DNA of 64,000 nt from assembly GCA_026636295.1 (NCBI GenBank), contig CP089455.1, forward strand, positions 248,001-312,000, in the 5' to 3' direction. Every line of letters begins with the position of its first letter. Positions within the stretch are counted from its first letter, which is position 1. The stretch is from Medakamo hakoo (taxonomy: Eukaryota > Chlorophyta > Trebouxiophyceae > Coccomyxaceae). The translations under genes were made by a program, and so were the position numbers. The notes under the pieces are model-generated. The model saw only the letters and a list, made by a program, of their open reading frames with translations. It was not told the origin of the DNA and searched no databases. Positions 44,859 through 51,957 of this stretch are shown here, in pieces.

Positions 44859-44986
44859 ACGGGGAAGCGACGAGCGTGGCATGTGTCAAAGCAGAGCAAA
44901 CACAAGAGCAGTAGGATTACAAGCCGCAAAGGGGCGGGCGGCCACTTCCGTCCCCCCTTTCCACCCCCCTCGCAAAAATCCCCACC

Positions 44987-45470
44987 TCACCGCGCTTCAA
45001 ACTGGACGACCCGCTTCGTCCGCTTTTTGTAGAGGATGCGGTAGCCGCACTCCCGGCATCGGATGATGTCCGTGGCTTTCAGGTCGTTCTCGCAGCCTGC
45101 GGGGTGTGGGTGGGCGGGGTTGTGTGTGCGGGACGGTGTGCACGGATGAGGAGGTTGGTGATGGCGGCGGGAGGGAGGAAAAAAAAACGCGACTAGCCGC
45201 GTGCAGGAGGCGGGACCGGGCGAGGGGCAGGAGCGGGGTAGCACCGCCCGCTTTCCTTGCGCTGAGTGCATCACATGTTCCCACGTCCAGCCCGGTGAGC
45301 GTGAGGCCGAGGAGGCGCCGGCTCACGCCGGCGCGAAGCGAGACTCCGCCGGCCGCCGGCACACAGCGCTGGCGCACTCCTCTCTCTCACACACACACAA
45401 ACGCACCGCAGTCGCCGCACAGGTACGTCACCTCTGGCGCGGGGGCCAGTTGAGGGGCGGCGCCGAGCAT
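44987..45470 (-). CDS. RPB12: RNA polymerase I/II/III shared subunit RPB12 (RPABC4)
   Basis: Two exons (45470-45407 and 45096-44987), 57 residues, the normal length. It reads [44 protein letters not shown], with the CxxC..CxxC zinc site and the invariant [14 protein letters not shown]. It is a small zinc-ribbon subunit bridging RPB2 and RPB3 in all three nuclear polymerases. The donor GTGCGT in phase 1 splits the codon after the second zinc Cys pair. The protein is too short to be found as one frame, and the splice restores it exactly. Confidence 0.96.
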
Positions 45471-45664
45471 CTTGTCGTCGTCGTGTGACCCGTCGTCGTG
45501 CGGTCGTGCGGGCGAGGAGGAAATGTGTGCGCCGACGAAAAAGAAACGCAGCTCTGCGCCTCGCGACCGACTGCCGCTCTCAGTCTCTTTTTTTTTCCGT
45601 CGTGCGCGAAGAAGAGGAAGAAAGAAGTTTTCGCGCGCCTGGCCCCGGCACGCACAAACTTGAA
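45471..45664. promoter_or_regulatory. Divergent promoter, RPB12 / FHA-PHD gene
   Basis: 194 bp between divergent starts, with CGTCGT-rich sequence and A/T-runs. No factor site was recognised. Confidence 0.45.
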
Positions 45665-48600
45665 ATGTCCCGCCCGCCCGCCCTTGAAGCCATCATGGAG
45701 GCGTCACCCGCCCCCGCGCCGGCGTCGCACGGGCCATCCGCGGCAAAGAAGCTCGCCGCCTCCGGCGGTGACGCGGCGGCAACGCATGCACCGCGCCACT
45801 ACGGCCGCCTGCTCATCCCGTCCCGGGACGGGTCGGCCATGGCATTTGCGCTGGCCAAGGACGACGTTGTCATTGGGCGGTGAGTTGAAAGTTGGAGGGG
45901 TGGTGCGGGCGCGGGAGAGAGGCCGCGTGCCTCCGTCTGTTCGGCGCGCGCGCGCGCGCATGCGGCGTCCTCTCACCTTCCAACGCGCCCTCCCGTTGCA
46001 CCCCAGCGACCCGTCCTGTGACATCGTGCTCGCCCCACGCGAGATCTCGCGCCGCCACGCCCGCTTGCAGATCCGCCCGGGCGGCCGGGTGTGGGTGTCG
46101 TCGCTGGGCCGGGAACCCGTGTCGGTCGAGGGCGTGCCCGTGCCGACGGCCGGCCCGCCCGTCTTGCTCCCACCAGGCGCGGCCATCCAGGTCAAGCTGG
46201 CGTCGTCCGTGCGCGAGCTGCGGTACGAGCCGCCCGCGGTGAGCGCGGGTGAGGCTGGCGGCCGGGCTGTGCTGGGCGAGATCCGCGTGGCGAGTGGCGG
46301 TGGTGGTCTGTCGTCGCACCACACGCGCCTCGCGCCCTCGCCGGCCGTGAAAAAGCCGGCGGCGGCGGCGGCGGTGGCGGTGGTGGCGGCGGCGGCGCCC
46401 GCCCCTGCCCCTGAGCTAGCCGTGGACGCGGACGAAAACCAGGAGAACGCGCCTGCCGTCGCCGTGGTGGAGGCGGCCAAGCCTGCGCCTGCTCCGGCTG
46501 CCGAAGCTCCACCACTCGCCGCGTCCCCTCACCCGCCCGCCGCGGACGACAAGCCGCGCAAGTCGGTGCGCTTTGCGGCGACGCCAGTGGCCGCCGCTGC
46601 CGCCGCCGCGGACGCGGCCACGCCCGCCAGCGGCTGCCCTGTGCCCGCGTCCGTCGACGTGGGTGGCGCCGCCGCCGACGCGCCGCTGTCAGGCGTCATC
46701 GACGTCCGGGGCGACAACACGGGCGCGTTTGCCGCCTGGGCGCGTGGCGACGCGCCCGGCGTGTCGCCCGCGTCGGCCGGCGGCGGCGGCCCGCCGCCGT
46801 CCGTGGGCACCAAGCGCCGGTCATGTTCGGGGTCGCGCCTGGGCACGCCCGCCGCCCGGCCCAGCGCCGGGCACGCCGCCGGCGACGGCGACGACGGCGA
46901 CGCCTTCCGCCCGGCGTCCCGGCGCCGGTCGTCCACGCGCGCGGCTGCTGCCGCTGCGGCGGCGGCCATTACCCTGGCCGCGGAAGAAGCGGCGGAGCAC
47001 GCGGCCGCGGCCGCTGCACCGGTCGCGCCCCTGCGGCTGGAGGCGCCGCCCGCCGTCTTGGCCTTGCCCGCGCCGCCGGCCGCCTCCCAGCCCGTCGTTC
47101 GAACGGTGCGCCTGTCCACAGCGGACGCGACGGTCGAGCTCCCGGCCGAGTTGTTCGCGACGCCCGCGGCCGGCGGCGACGCGGCGGGCGGGGTGAGCGG
47201 GCACGGCGGGTCGGTCGCAATCATCGTCCCGGCCGCCCTGGCCGCGGCGGGCGACGTGGAGATCCGCATCCCGGCCGCGGCCTTTGCGGCGGCCGCCCGG
47301 TCTGCCTTGCCGGGCGCCGCCGCCGCGCCCGGCTGGGACGGCGACGCGACGGTGGAGGTGCCGGCCGGGGTGTTTGCGACGCCCTCGGGCGGCGCGGCGC
47401 CTGGCGCGCGCGCACCGCAACCACCCGCCGACGCGACCGTCGAGCTGCCCGCCGCCCTGTTCGCCACGCCGCGCCGGGGTAGTGGCGGCCGCGCCGACGC
47501 CGACGCGACCATCGAGCTGCCGCGCGGCATGTTCGACTCGCCGGAACTGGGCGGTGGCGGCCAAGGGGTGGAGACGGACGCCGAGGCCGCCCCACCACCA
47601 CCCGCGCCCGCCGCCCCTCCTGCCCGTCCGTCCACCCGCCGCTCGTCCATCGACCCGGCCGTCCGCCTGCTGGTGCGGGCGGCCCTGGCGAACGCCGCGG
47701 TCGGCGCGTCGGCCGCGGAGGTTGGTGCCGGCGCGCACGACGACGACGCACGCGCGACCGACCCGCCGTCCGCCCGCCGCCGCATGTCCGCCACGCCGTC
47801 CGGGGGTGCGGACACGCCCGCGACGGCGGCGGTGCACACGCTGATCGAGGGCGTGCTGGCGGACGCCCTGATGCGGTCGACGCCGGGCGATGGGCTGGCG
47901 GGCGGTGGTGCGGCCGGCGGCGCGGCGGCGGCGAGCGGTGAGGCCGGGGAGGCGACGCCGGGCGCGGCCGCGGTCATGCCGGGCGCGGCCGCGCCCACGC
48001 CCGTTACGGCGGGCCCGCCCGCCCTGCTCGCGCCCGCGCCGACGCCCGCAACGGGCGCGGCGGGCGCGGCCAACAAGCCCGCCGCGCACGACGCCCTACC
48101 CGCGCCGGCCCTGGCCGGCGCCCTGGTCGCGGCCCGCCTCATGGAAGGCGGGCCTGCCCGCCGCCGCAGCGGCAGCGGCACGCCGGCCGCGGCGGCGGCG
48201 CCGACCGCCGCCACCCCGGCCACCGCGCCGACCGCGGCCGCGGCCCGCCTGGTCCGCGGCGTCCTGGCCAACCTGCGCACGCCCGGCCCCGCGCCCGCGC
48301 CGTCGCCCGCGTCGGCCATGGAGGTTGAAGAAGGAGGAGGAGGGGGTGGCTCCGAGCCGGAGCACACGCCCGTCGCGACGGCGGCTGTCACGGTCACCCC
48401 TGCGACTGGCGCGGCGGCCGCCCTTGTCCGGGGCGTGTTTGCCGGCCTGGCCACGCCCGCCGGTGCCGAGGAGGGGGTGGAGGCCGTGGAAGCGGCCGCC
48501 CAGCCTGCCGCCACCACCCAGCCTGCCGCCACCACCCCGCCGTCCGTCGCGGCCGCCCGCCTGGTGCGCGGCGTGTTTGCTGGGCTGGTGGAGGAGGGAG

Positions 48601-50126
48601 GAGGGGCGGGGCACCCCGCGGCGGCTCCCGCGCCATCCTCGCCCGGCCCACCCCCGCCCGCCGGCGGCGACGACGACGACGACGACGCGACCGTCGACCT
48701 GAGCGGCCTGGCGGCGGCGGACGCCGGAAAAGAAGCTGAAGAAGACGACGACGACGCGGCTGGGCCGGCCCTGGGCGCGGCCGTCGGCGCGGGCGGCGGG
48801 GCGGCCTCGCCCACGGTGTCGCTGCACCTGTGCGCGCTCTTTGCCACGCCCGGCCCCGCCGCCGCCGCCGCCGCCGCCGGCCCCGCCACCATCCACCTGC
48901 CGGCGGGCGCGTACGCGGCCTCGCCCGCTCCTCCGGCTGCGGAAGACGCCACGGTCCAGCTGCCGCCCGGCTTGTTCGCGGCGCCCCCGCCGGGCGCGGG
49001 CCCCGAAGACTTGCTGGCCGGCCTGACGCCGCTGCCCGAACCGCCCGCCGACGCGCCGGCCTTTGGTGGGGAAGAGTGCGACCCGGACACGCCCGCCCTG
49101 ACCCCGCGCACCGCCGTCGAAGCCGCGACGGCGGCGGCCCGGGCGCACTGGGCCCGCGGCCGCCTGCTGGAAGCCCGCCTGGCCGCCGCGGTCGCGGCCC
49201 TGGGCCAGGAGCGGGCCCTGCGCGCGGCCGCGCTGGCGGCGGCCGCGGGCCGCCTGGCCGCGGGCGTCGCGGCCGTGCTCCCGCCGACCGTGCCGCGCGT
49301 CGTCGTCGTCTCCGCCGACCCGGCGCCGGCGTCTGCACCCCCGCCCCCCGGCCTGGAAAGCGCGGGCGCGTGCGTCGTCGTCCGCGTGCCGCCGCCCGTG
49401 CCGACGTCTGCGCGCGGCCGCCCGCTGCGCCGCCCGCTCGGCCCGGCCGGCGGCGGGGGCGTGGGGCTGACGACAGCGGCCAAGCCCGGCCGCCGCGCCG
49501 CCGCCACCGCCCGCAACTCCGACCTGGCCGCGTCCGCGGACGAGGAAGACGACGACGACGACGAAGACTGCAGCGTGGGCGGCGCCGCCGCGTCCTCCGA
49601 CGACGGCGGGGCCGAGGCCGCGTCCAGCGACGACGACGACGCGTCCGACGACGACGCCCCCTCGCCCGACGAGTGCGGCGAGTGCGGCGGGTCCACCCGC
49701 AACAAAAAGGGCGGCGCGACCGTGGCGTGCGGCTCCTGCCCGGCCGCCTTCCACCTCAAGTGCGTCGGCCTGCGCCGGGGGCCCAAGGCCGCGTGGTTTT
49801 GCGACGAGTGCGCCGCGAGCGGGCGGGCGGCCGCGGCGAAGAAAGCCGCGGCGGCCGCCAAGGCCGCGGCCCGGGCGGCCGCCAAAGCCGACAAGCCGCC
49901 GCCCAAGAAGCGGGCGGCTCGCAAGGCGCCCGAGGATGGCGGGGACGGGGACGCGGCGCCGCCCCCCGCGCGGAAACGCCGGGCGCCGGTCAAAAAGGCA
50001 GCAGAGGCAGGCGCGGTGGTGGATGGAGGGGACGCTGCTGCGCCACCGCCACCGCCACCGTCACCGCCCGAACAAGAGGAGGGCCCGGCGGCGGCCGAAG
50101 AAGAGGCGGCCGCCGTGGCTGAGTGA
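45665..50126 (+). CDS. FHA-repeat-PHD finger protein with PP1-docking motif (Ki-67-like layout)
   Basis: Two exons (45665-45879 and 46007-50126), about 1444 residues. An FHA domain spans residues about 46-145: DDVVIGRDPSCDIVLAPREISRRHARLQI, then VSVEGVPV and RELRYEPP. The phosphothreonine-binding Arg, Ser and His are present. KSVRF at residues 257-261 fits the RVxF protein phosphatase 1 docking motif. The centre carries two diverged repeat families. One is DATVELPAELFATP-like (near residues 445, 488, 518, 547, 571, 965, 1008, 1032, 1052). The other is AARLVRGVFAGLATP-like (about 620, 680, 817, 875, 920). An acidic belt precedes a C4HC3 PHD finger at about 1295-1341 (CGECGG...CGSCPAAFHLKC...CDEC), then a Lys/Arg tail suited to the nucleus. 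Function unknown; a chromatin-bound, phosphatase-linked scaffold is inferred. Confidence 0.85.
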
Positions 50127-50338
50127 GCCCCTTTTTTGAGTGTGTGAGACAGAGGGGAGGAGACGGGGCGTGGGCCGTGAAAAAACACACAACTTGAAAG
50201 GGCGGAGGTGGTGGAAGAGAGGCGAGTGGGCTCTCAGTGCAACGACCGCCGCAAAAGCGCGCGGGCGAGCGAACAAAACAAAGAACAGCGGCAGTTTCCA
50301 GTCGATCCACCCCTCCCGTGACCCTCCCCCCACCCACC

Positions 50339-51957
50339 ATGGCGTATGTGGAGGTCGATGGCGTGAAGTGGGTGAGTTTTTGTGGAGCGTTGTGGGGGTG
50401 GGCGCGGCCACAACGCGGCGCGCATTGCGGCGCTGCCGCACGGCGGCGGCTTGGCCAAGGGTGGCGCGGACTGTGCGTGTGGGAGGGCTTGCGTCGCCCA
50501 TCCGTTGCCAGTGTCGGGGTTCTGACTGTTTAGAGCATCCAATGCGATGGATTGTGCATTCATTCTAGGGCAGAAACCGTGCCGTCCGCGGCCGAAAAGT
50601 GTCGCGCCGGCGTCGGGCCGCACGGCCCCTCCCCCGACGTCCCCCCTCCCCCCTCGCTCACTTTTCTCTGCCGTCCAAAAAAAAACACCCGCGCAGCTCG
50701 AGGAGGAGATCCAGGACGACCTGAAGTGGTCCATCCAGGTCAAGCAGGTCCTGCACTCGGGCAAGTCCGAGTTCCAGTCCGTCGAGCTCGTCGATTCCGG
50801 GCCCTTTGGCAAGGTCCTGCTGCTGGACGGCAAGGCCCAGTCCGCGGAAGCCGACGAGCGCGTGTACCACGAAATGCTCGTCCACCCGGCCCTGCTGGCC
50901 CACCCGCGCCCGCGCACCGTCTTCATCGCGGGCGGCGGCGAGGGCGCGACCGCGCGCGAGGTGCTGCGCCACACGTCCGTCGAGCGACTCGTCATGGCCG
51001 ACATCGACGCGGTCGTCTGCGACTTTTGCGAGCGCCACCTGCCCGCCAACGCCGCCGCCTTCGCCGACGCCCGCCTGGACCTGGTCATCGACTGCGCCAA
51101 GGCCCGGCTGGAGGCGGCGCCGGACGGCGCCTTCGACGTCATCATCGGCGACCTGGCCGACCCCGTGTCCGGCGGGCCGTGCTACCAGTTGTACACGCGT
51201 GAATTCTACGAGGGCGTCATCGCGCGCAAGCTGGCGCCGGGCGGCGTGTTCGTGACGCAGTCCGGGCCGGCCGGCGTCCTGTCGTCCGGCGAAGTGTTTG
51301 CGCCCATCCACCACACGCTCGCGGCCGTCTTCCCCCGCGTCGTCCCGCTGACCGCGCACGTGCCGTCGTACGCCGACACGTGGGGCTGGAACATTGCCTT
51401 TGGCCGCGGCGAGGCCGAGGAGGGCCGGCCGTCCGCCCTGCCTGAGAGTGCGGAGGAGGCGGACGCTGCCATGGCGTCCCGCATCGACGGCGAGCTGACG
51501 GTGCGTTGCCTTTTTTCGGGGGTGCACCCCCGGTGGGGAGGAGAGGGGGGGGGGGGGCGAGGTGGGTGGGTGGGTGGGGGGGGGGGGTCGGTGCCACTGG
51601 CCTGCTTTCGTACGACGGGAGGGGGCCGGGCCCGCGTGGGGTGAAGTGGTCTGGCGGGCACGCCCGCACCAGTGAGGGGGGCGTGCGGGCGGTGCCGCAC
51701 GTGCGGCACCGCGGCCTTATCCTTTTTGGCGCCTGTTGGCCTGGGTGCGCGCCAACACACAAACCACCCACGACCCACCCCCCCGAAACAAAACCTAAAC
51801 ACAACAGTTTTTGGATGGGGCCACGCTCGTCGGCGCGCGCGCCCTGAACAAGATCGTCCGCCGCGTGGTGGCGGAGGAAACGCATGTGTACACGGTGGAC
51901 GCGCCGCGCTTCATCCACGGGGAAGGGATCGCGGGCGCGACGGCGGCGGAGGAGTGA
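50339..51957 (+). CDS. ACL5: Thermospermine synthase (ACL5-type aminopropyltransferase)
   Basis: Three exons (50339-50371, 50697-51500, 51808-51957), about 328 residues. Exon 1 codes only MAYVEVDGVKW. Exon 2 has EEEIQDDLKWSIQVKQVLHSGKSEFQSVELVDSGPFGKVLLLDGKAQSAEADERVYHE. The SAM-type loop FIAGGGEGATAREVLRH and catalytic GDLADPVSGGPCYQLYTREFY follow. The phrase GDLADP.EGGPCYQLYT is diagnostic for ACL5/thermospermine synthase rather than spermidine synthase. Exon 3 supplies LNKIVRRVVAEETHVYTVDAPRFIHGEG. It adds an aminopropyl group from decarboxylated SAM to spermidine. In plants the product controls xylem growth; algae also make it. Donors GTGAGT and GTGCGT, phase 0. Confidence 0.96.

Follow-up and report, generated by a model that had tools for sequence, protein, structure and literature searches.

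Does a green alga encode a chromosome scaffold of the kind known from animals as Ki-67 and from fungi as bridgin? The question is raised by a gene on the plus strand of a 64,000-nucleotide stretch of the genome of the trebouxiophyte Medakamo hakoo (GenBank assembly GCA_026636295.1, contig CP089455.1, positions 248,001 to 312,000; hereafter, the window), in which a first-pass annotation made from the letters alone had seen an FHA domain, a docking motif for protein phosphatase 1 (PP1), internal repeats and a PHD finger, arranged on a Ki-67-like plan. Our analysis suggests, with a probability that we would put at about 0.47 and hence somewhat short of even, that the product is a green-algal scaffold of the Ki-67/bridgin kind, with FHA domain, PP1 dock, acidic repeats and basic tail, which carries a PHD finger as well. 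We infer common descent with Ki-67 and bridgin, as we do the PP1 binding, phosphorylation, chromatin binding and timing of the algal protein.

The gene and its trebouxiophyte family

The coordinates first proposed for the gene were correct, in that translation gives a coding sequence from an ATG to a stop in two exons, and the splice sites read in the window define a sole GT-AG intron that cuts the FHA domain between IGR and DPSCD. In open reading frame (ORF) predictions of relatives the homology breaks off at the same site of the domain, stopping after IGR in P0061, P0064 and P0022 and starting at RDxxCDI in P0023, P0037 and P0058-P0060, matching the intron position. The start at 45665 is favoured over an ATG at 45695 because the close relative P0022 also opens with MSRPPAL. 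The domain content stood as well: in the exon-2 translation FHA scores 31.7 bits (Pfam cut-off 20.7) and PHD 28.6 bits (cut-off 24), the middle region is acidic, with an isoelectric point (pI) of 4.61, the tail is basic, and KSVRF lies where it had been placed. The features that carry the argument are the following:

45665..50126, plus strand: whole gene, with exon 1 at 45665-45879, intron at 45880-46006 and exon 2 at 46007-50126; 1,444 amino acids (aa); from translation, splice sites and the conserved start and intron position
45803..46229, plus strand: FHA domain, residues 47-146, split by the intron (Pfam PF00498; family alignment)
46263..46280, plus strand: RAVLGE, residues 158-163, where relatives have a destruction-box-like [RK]..L..xN (family comparison)
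46560..46574, plus strand: KSVRF, residues 257-261, putative PP1 dock of the RVxF type (family pattern; block profile)
46692..46748, plus strand: GVIDVRGDNTGAFAAWARG, residues 301-319, a hydrophobic/acidic run followed by D-x-T-x-x-hydrophobic-x-x-W (family pattern)
49539..49664, plus strand: acidic belt (sequence)
49674..49811, plus strand: PHD finger, residues 1295-1340 (Pfam PF00628; family profile)
49812..50123, plus strand: basic tail of 104 residues, pI 9.35 (computed)

Searching with the window sequence returned one relative, P0001 of Myrmecia bisecta, whose FHA domain in turn found proteins of Coccomyxa, Chlorella vulgaris and Nannochloris; a profile built from five FHA domains was then scored against 7,997 candidates and matched 101 proteins at E<=10. 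We counted 59 of the 101 as family, chosen by FHA sequence (P0001, P0004-P0008 and P0012-P0064), among them proteins of Chlorella variabilis, Parachlorella kessleri and Auxenochlorella, and excluded lower-ranking matches that had bacterial-type domain sets or FHA alone, or that were too short to judge (P0066). Counts out of 26 given here refer to the Medakamo protein plus the 25 of these 59 members that match a PHD pattern, several of which are closely related; the other 34, short or PHD-less pieces, stand outside them.

The motif K[STNR]VRF is present in 25 of the 26, with serine at the variable position in 22 and threonine, arginine and asparagine once each, and is absent from P0041. Soon after it comes [ST]P[ED]G in 24 of 26 by script; the Medakamo protein is without it, and in P0041 a TPEG is visible that went uncounted. 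The pattern [DN]xT..[FLIV]..W follows in 24 members and the remaining two carry a DTLAF..W variant, so that the W-bearing block is found in all 26; the hydrophobic and acidic runs ahead of it resemble a SUMO-interacting motif pattern. Against a profile of the stretch from KSVRF to the W block, made from 19 relatives with the Medakamo species excluded and P0015 omitted for its long insert, the Medakamo protein scores 21.1 bits, compared with 7.3 for the best of 1000 shuffles. Behind the FHA domain, a script detected a fuller destruction-box-like [RK]..L..xN, resembling that of securin, in 15 of the 26, the Medakamo protein having RAVLGE only. In the Coccomyxa members P0004 and P0006 a second destruction-box-like element, RGRKALEDKTNQ, lies near the C-terminus. 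Middle regions, the disorder of which was judged by composition, have a pI of 4.50-5.83 and tails one of 9.35-12.00 in all 26 members. Judged from these sequences, the same plan is encoded in Myrmecia, Coccomyxa, Chlorella, Parachlorella, Auxenochlorella and Nannochloris, and what had been annotated in one species is a conserved trebouxiophyte family and not a one-species oddity; the idea of an independent or distant chromatin scaffold with a PHD finger keeps the support of this plan and of the family's FHA domains, and loses its single-species scope.

The repeats and the FHA domain compared with Ki-67

Two families of diverged repeats had been noted in the middle region, and their copies are located as follows:

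47124..47165, plus strand: family A, DATVELPAELFATP, residue 445 (strict pattern)
47343..47384, plus strand: family A, DATVEVPAGVFATP, residue 518 (strict pattern)
47430..47471, plus strand: family A, DATVELPAALFATP, residue 547 (strict pattern)
47502..47543, plus strand: family A, DATIELPRGMFDSP, residue 571 (strict pattern)
48945..48986, plus strand: family A, DATVQLPPGLFAAP, residue 1052 (strict pattern)
48237..48275, plus strand: family B, AAARLVRGVLANL (pattern)
48414..48449, plus strand: family B, AAALVRGVFAGL (pattern)
48549..48587, plus strand: family B, AAARLVRGVFAGL (pattern)

With the proviso that the repeat and site patterns were composed after inspection of the sequences, the five strict copies of family A (DAT[VI]x[LV]P) compare with a block-shuffle mean of 0.00 for a near-identical test pattern, and 0 of 2000 shuffles reach the three copies of family B ([LA]VRGV[LF]A). 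Of the codon pairs in pairwise comparison of the family A copies, 59 are identical, 37 synonymous and 44 nonsynonymous. The close relatives P0022 and P0026 retain DATVELPAxLFASP, with V[AS]I[IV]VPAAL and GDVEIRIPA coming after it as degenerate units. On the strength of the shuffle tests and of this conservation, both repeat families were borne out, and the repeats are not compositional noise.

The middle region of the Medakamo protein also holds 32 [ST]P sites against 15.6 expected, a number reached by 0 of 2000 shuffles, and in all 26 members there are more [ST]P sites than in the average shuffle; D-x-T-x-x-hydrophobic occurs seven times in the protein, compared with 0.41 expected from shuffles. 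The FATP or ATP ends of the repeats had been proposed as sites either for a cyclin-dependent kinase (CDK) or for binding by an FHA domain. They may well be CDK-type sites, to judge from their appearance; as an FHA ligand, however, the threonine of D-x-T-x-x-hydrophobic seems the better candidate. The acidic residue at -2 is in keeping with acidophilic mitotic kinases, and the hydrophobic one at +3 with FHA pockets; hence self-association or partner binding could be driven by phosphorylation.

As for the FHA domain, the family profile ranked Ki-67 first among PDB entries at 45.9 bits (E 4.4e-11), the next non-Ki-67 entry scoring 30.6, and a broader profile gave 46.4 bits for Ki-67 and 32.5 for the next, although the two profiles rest on overlapping alignments and are not independent. 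The single Myrmecia FHA domain likewise had Ki-67 at 34.2 bits, ahead of 29.3. When the FHA domain of P0013 was modelled with AlphaFold2 (mean pLDDT, the model's own confidence score, 72) and submitted to Foldseek, Ki-67 took the first two places (E 2.3e-7 and 6.9e-7; next 4.6e-6), and P0013 was in turn first by best domain, at 42.0 bits, with the Ki-67 FHA as query. Two of the six other FHA loci of the Medakamo genome served as informative controls, one of the DDL/SNIP1 type (L002 1501-1743, 111 bits) and one of the KAPP type (L003 1501-1713, 62 bits), and neither listed Ki-67 at E<=1; a third had no strong FHA match and was uninformative. NIPP1 (PPP1R8), a nuclear protein, likewise has an FHA domain together with a PP1 motif of the RVxF type, and its FHA (2jpe) was listed for the DDL-type domain but not among the best 60 of the 61 family-profile matches at E<=1. 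These scores support, at the level of the family, the view that among solved structures the algal FHA is probably closest to that of Ki-67.

Statements on published work here and below, including what a paper leaves unmentioned, refer to the excerpts of each source that were drawn on. Metazoan Ki-67 (MKI67) coats mitotic chromosomes and binds NIFK. In it an FHA domain is joined by RVxF, by repeats that hold CDK1 sites and by a tail that binds chromatin (PMC8354752). The algal protein shares with it the N-terminal FHA, the RVxF-type motif, a long repeat region rich in TP and SP, and the basic C-terminus, the part in which Ki-67 carries its chromatin-binding LR domain. It differs in the PHD finger that it adds and in its repeats, which are short DATVELP..FATP and LVRGVFAGL units. 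The Ki-67-like plan first proposed therefore stands as to FHA, RVxF-type motif, repeats and added PHD, and falls as to the repeats being Ki-67 repeats, since the best local match of the Medakamo protein to the Ki-67 repeat motif TPKEKAQALEDLAGFKELFQTP (PMC8354752) is equalled in 88 of 300 shuffles, which puts the likeness of ELFATP to ELFQTP at chance level; across 11 members, the shuffles reaching the best match range from 14 of 300 (P0043) to 277 of 300. Pfam PP1_bind had no match in the nine members scanned, and the NIFK-binding Pfam family none in the algal proteins, the controls being unmatched as well.

Several results weigh against a scaffold of the Ki-67/bridgin kind. The KiR-SLiM, FDxxLP(P/A)N(T/S)PL.. 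behind RVxF in Ki-67 (PMC5005033), was found in 0 of 26 members by full, core and relaxed patterns, and the FKELF of the Ki-67 repeat motif in 0 of 26. Taken alone, the Medakamo FHA puts MDC1 at the top with 22.1 bits and gives Ki-67 13.9. With the Ki-67 FHA as query, two apparently bacterial domains come directly after P0013 (39.1 and 38.7 bits), ahead of further algal ones at 36.6, 36.4 and 35.9, and by whole-sequence score proteins with multiple FHA copies lead. Structure comparison with VIA-align tied Ki-67 with EmbR, and no vertebrate Ki-67 appeared among the 101 matches of the five-FHA profile. Four of the members tested by shuffling had no enrichment of D-x-T-x-x-hydrophobic. Because two features that define Ki-67, the KiR-SLiM and the repeat motif, are absent, we do not call the protein Ki-67; and in view of the reciprocal scores, the result for its own FHA and the EmbR tie, we regard the FHA kinship as a family-level lead and not as proof. 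The Ki-67 link first suggested thus draws on the profiles of the relatives, which do not place the domain in an unrelated FHA family, while the Medakamo FHA by itself is not decisive. RepoMan (CDCA2), a PP1-recruiting chromatin protein of mitotic exit, is alike in function; it shares the KiR-SLiM with Ki-67, unlike the algal protein, and is not known to have an FHA.

Convergence would explain the same proteins as a lineage-specific nuclear FHA-PHD family, its generic FHA merely Ki-67-like and its RVxF motif serving an unrelated PP1 task. The bacterial scores near the algal ones, the EmbR tie at the level of structure, the weak preference of the Medakamo FHA for MDC1 and the absence of Ki-67-specific motifs all fit such an explanation; we nevertheless consider it very improbable, as Ki-67 leads the next solved FHA by 14-15 bits in two profile searches, the two control domains do not list it, and FHA, RVxF, acidic repeats and basic tail co-occur as a whole plan.

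Bridgin, TCF19 and the surroundings of the gene

Ki-67 as the nearest plan was right in part and too narrow, since fungal bridgin, a kinetochore protein, also fits. Bridgin (Bgi1, from Basidiomycota) has an FHA at residues 1-124, a putative PP1 dock close behind and 13 repeats in 1,295 aa, with a pI of 4.65 in its acidic disordered repeat region and of 11.20 in its basic tail; it joins the outer kinetochore to chromatin, and Ki-67 is given by the authors as the metazoan homologue (PMC7794384). Bridgin-type proteins are described from fungi and Amoebozoa, and from Metazoa as Ki-67 with bridgin-like features, and for the plants discussed CENP-C is the only conserved kinetochore linker (PMC9252888). 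The literature searched, in excerpts and exclusive of supplements, yielded no algal or plant member of the bridgin/Ki-67 type.

As the nearest described plan includes bridgin, a role at the kinetochore is no less open than one in a chromosome coat. The algal protein could accordingly be a linker of the bridgin sort, its FHA and disordered middle binding phosphorylated outer kinetochore proteins and its PHD and basic tail holding centromeric chromatin, so as to reinforce the CENP-C link. Size (1,295 and 1,444 aa), N-terminal FHA, PP1-type dock behind it, a middle that is acidic and bears repeats, and a basic tail all match, and the distribution just described is in its favour; on the other hand, the algal sequence yielded no sign of kinetochore binding, the excerpts of PMC7794384 do not speak of a PHD in bridgin, and the match is one of plan by description and not of sequence. 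We hold it to be unlikely; if true, it would add a second linker to a lineage for which, from the plants studied, only CENP-C has been described.

The PHD finger brings in a different comparison. Best matches of the family PHD profile include PHF12 and CHD4 (both as sums of two fingers), KAT6A, KDM5B, KDM5A, BAZ2A, AIRE and PHF21A; most of these are readers of the unmodified histone H3 tail. The Medakamo finger alone is diverged and matched NSD2, NSD3 and ING1 first. Metazoan TCF19, of 345 aa, also unites FHA and PHD in one protein, its only two domains, and the algal protein might, like it, be an interphase chromatin regulator, recruiting PP1 or transcription complexes to promoters and having no structural role in mitosis. 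The PHD of 25 relatives (which were chosen for it) and the BAZ2-like database names of P0008 and P0018 would agree with this. TCF19, however, requires W307 and W316 for H3K4me3 (PMC13114050), and the sole tryptophan column in a five-member alignment of the algal PHD is that of WFC, so that the TCF19-type cage is absent there; moreover, a long acidic repeat region, TP enrichment and a PP1 motif of RVxF type are unmentioned for TCF19 in the excerpts of that paper. Such a regulator seems to us decidedly unlikely.

Two more features of the gene were noted by eye:

46812..46853, plus strand: KRRSCSGSRLGTPA, residues 341-354, basic kinase-type site and TP, also present in Coccomyxa
49110..49283, plus strand: Ala/Leu/Arg-rich, helical-looking stretch, roughly where relatives from Chlorella and Nannochloris have one that resembles a coiled coil

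At 49296-49394 of the window lie paired hydrophobic runs, RVVVVSADPAP...GACVVVRVPP, possible SUMO-binding motifs with VVVVRP counterparts in P0001, P0005 and P0007. Upstream, a divergent minus-strand gene (44980-45480) has a C-terminus that by eye resembles the zinc-ribbon RNA polymerase subunit RPB12/POLR2K, and downstream a plus-strand gene (50340-51640), with an early intron in its coding sequence, resembles spermidine synthase, again by eye. A minus-strand ORF of 1219 aa (46529-50188), antisense to the FHA-PHD gene, was not accepted as a gene; GC content is 73.6% in the window, and codon use at 73% GC leads one to expect a long antisense frame of this sort.

How such a scaffold might act and what it would mean

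If the protein is a scaffold of the Ki-67/bridgin kind, it would be a long, mostly low-complexity chain held on chromatin through its C-terminus, the PHD on the H3 tail and the basic tail on DNA, with the N-terminal FHA binding threonine-phosphorylated proteins. Mitotic kinases would phosphorylate its many TP/SP sites, of CDK type, together with the D-x-T-x-x-hydrophobic sites, and the FHA could then grip such a phosphothreonine of a partner protein or of further copies, giving rise to a meshwork or to anchoring at the kinetochore. Were the serine of RKSVRF the target of a basophilic kinase, PP1 could be blocked until anaphase, when it would dock at K[S/T]VRF on the chromosomes, around mitosis, and help undo mitotic phosphorylation. 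In Ki-67, S507, at the x of RVxF, is phosphorylated by Aurora B, and a phosphomimetic weakens PP1 binding 25-30-fold (PMC5005033); the algal serine lies one place before the V and is replaced by arginine or asparagine in 2 of the 25 members with the motif, so that a similar switch is possible, but at a different site.

A further-reaching version is doubtful in our estimation: that the Ki-67/bridgin scaffold dates to the last common eukaryotic ancestor and green algae keep a PHD form of it that reads H3, which would be the plant lineage's missing chromosome-surface organiser or second kinetochore linker, with D-x-T-x-x-hydrophobic sites as phospho-switches for its own FHA, polymerising in mitosis and dismantled by the PP1 that it carries. 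Chromosome proteomics in barley supports a perichromosomal layer in plants yet found no Ki-67, to the surprise of the authors, who allow for a different, undescribed protein (PMC8419432). A conserved green-algal protein with the Ki-67/bridgin plan would extend this kind to Archaeplastida and make the question of the chromosome scaffold testable in green algae, and it would show basic, sequence-nonspecific chromatin binding joined by a histone reader, the PHD. The D-x-T-x-x-hydrophobic-x-x-W block conserved across the family may be a short partner-binding motif, and chromosome scaffolds of the Ki-67/bridgin type may be older than animals and fungi.

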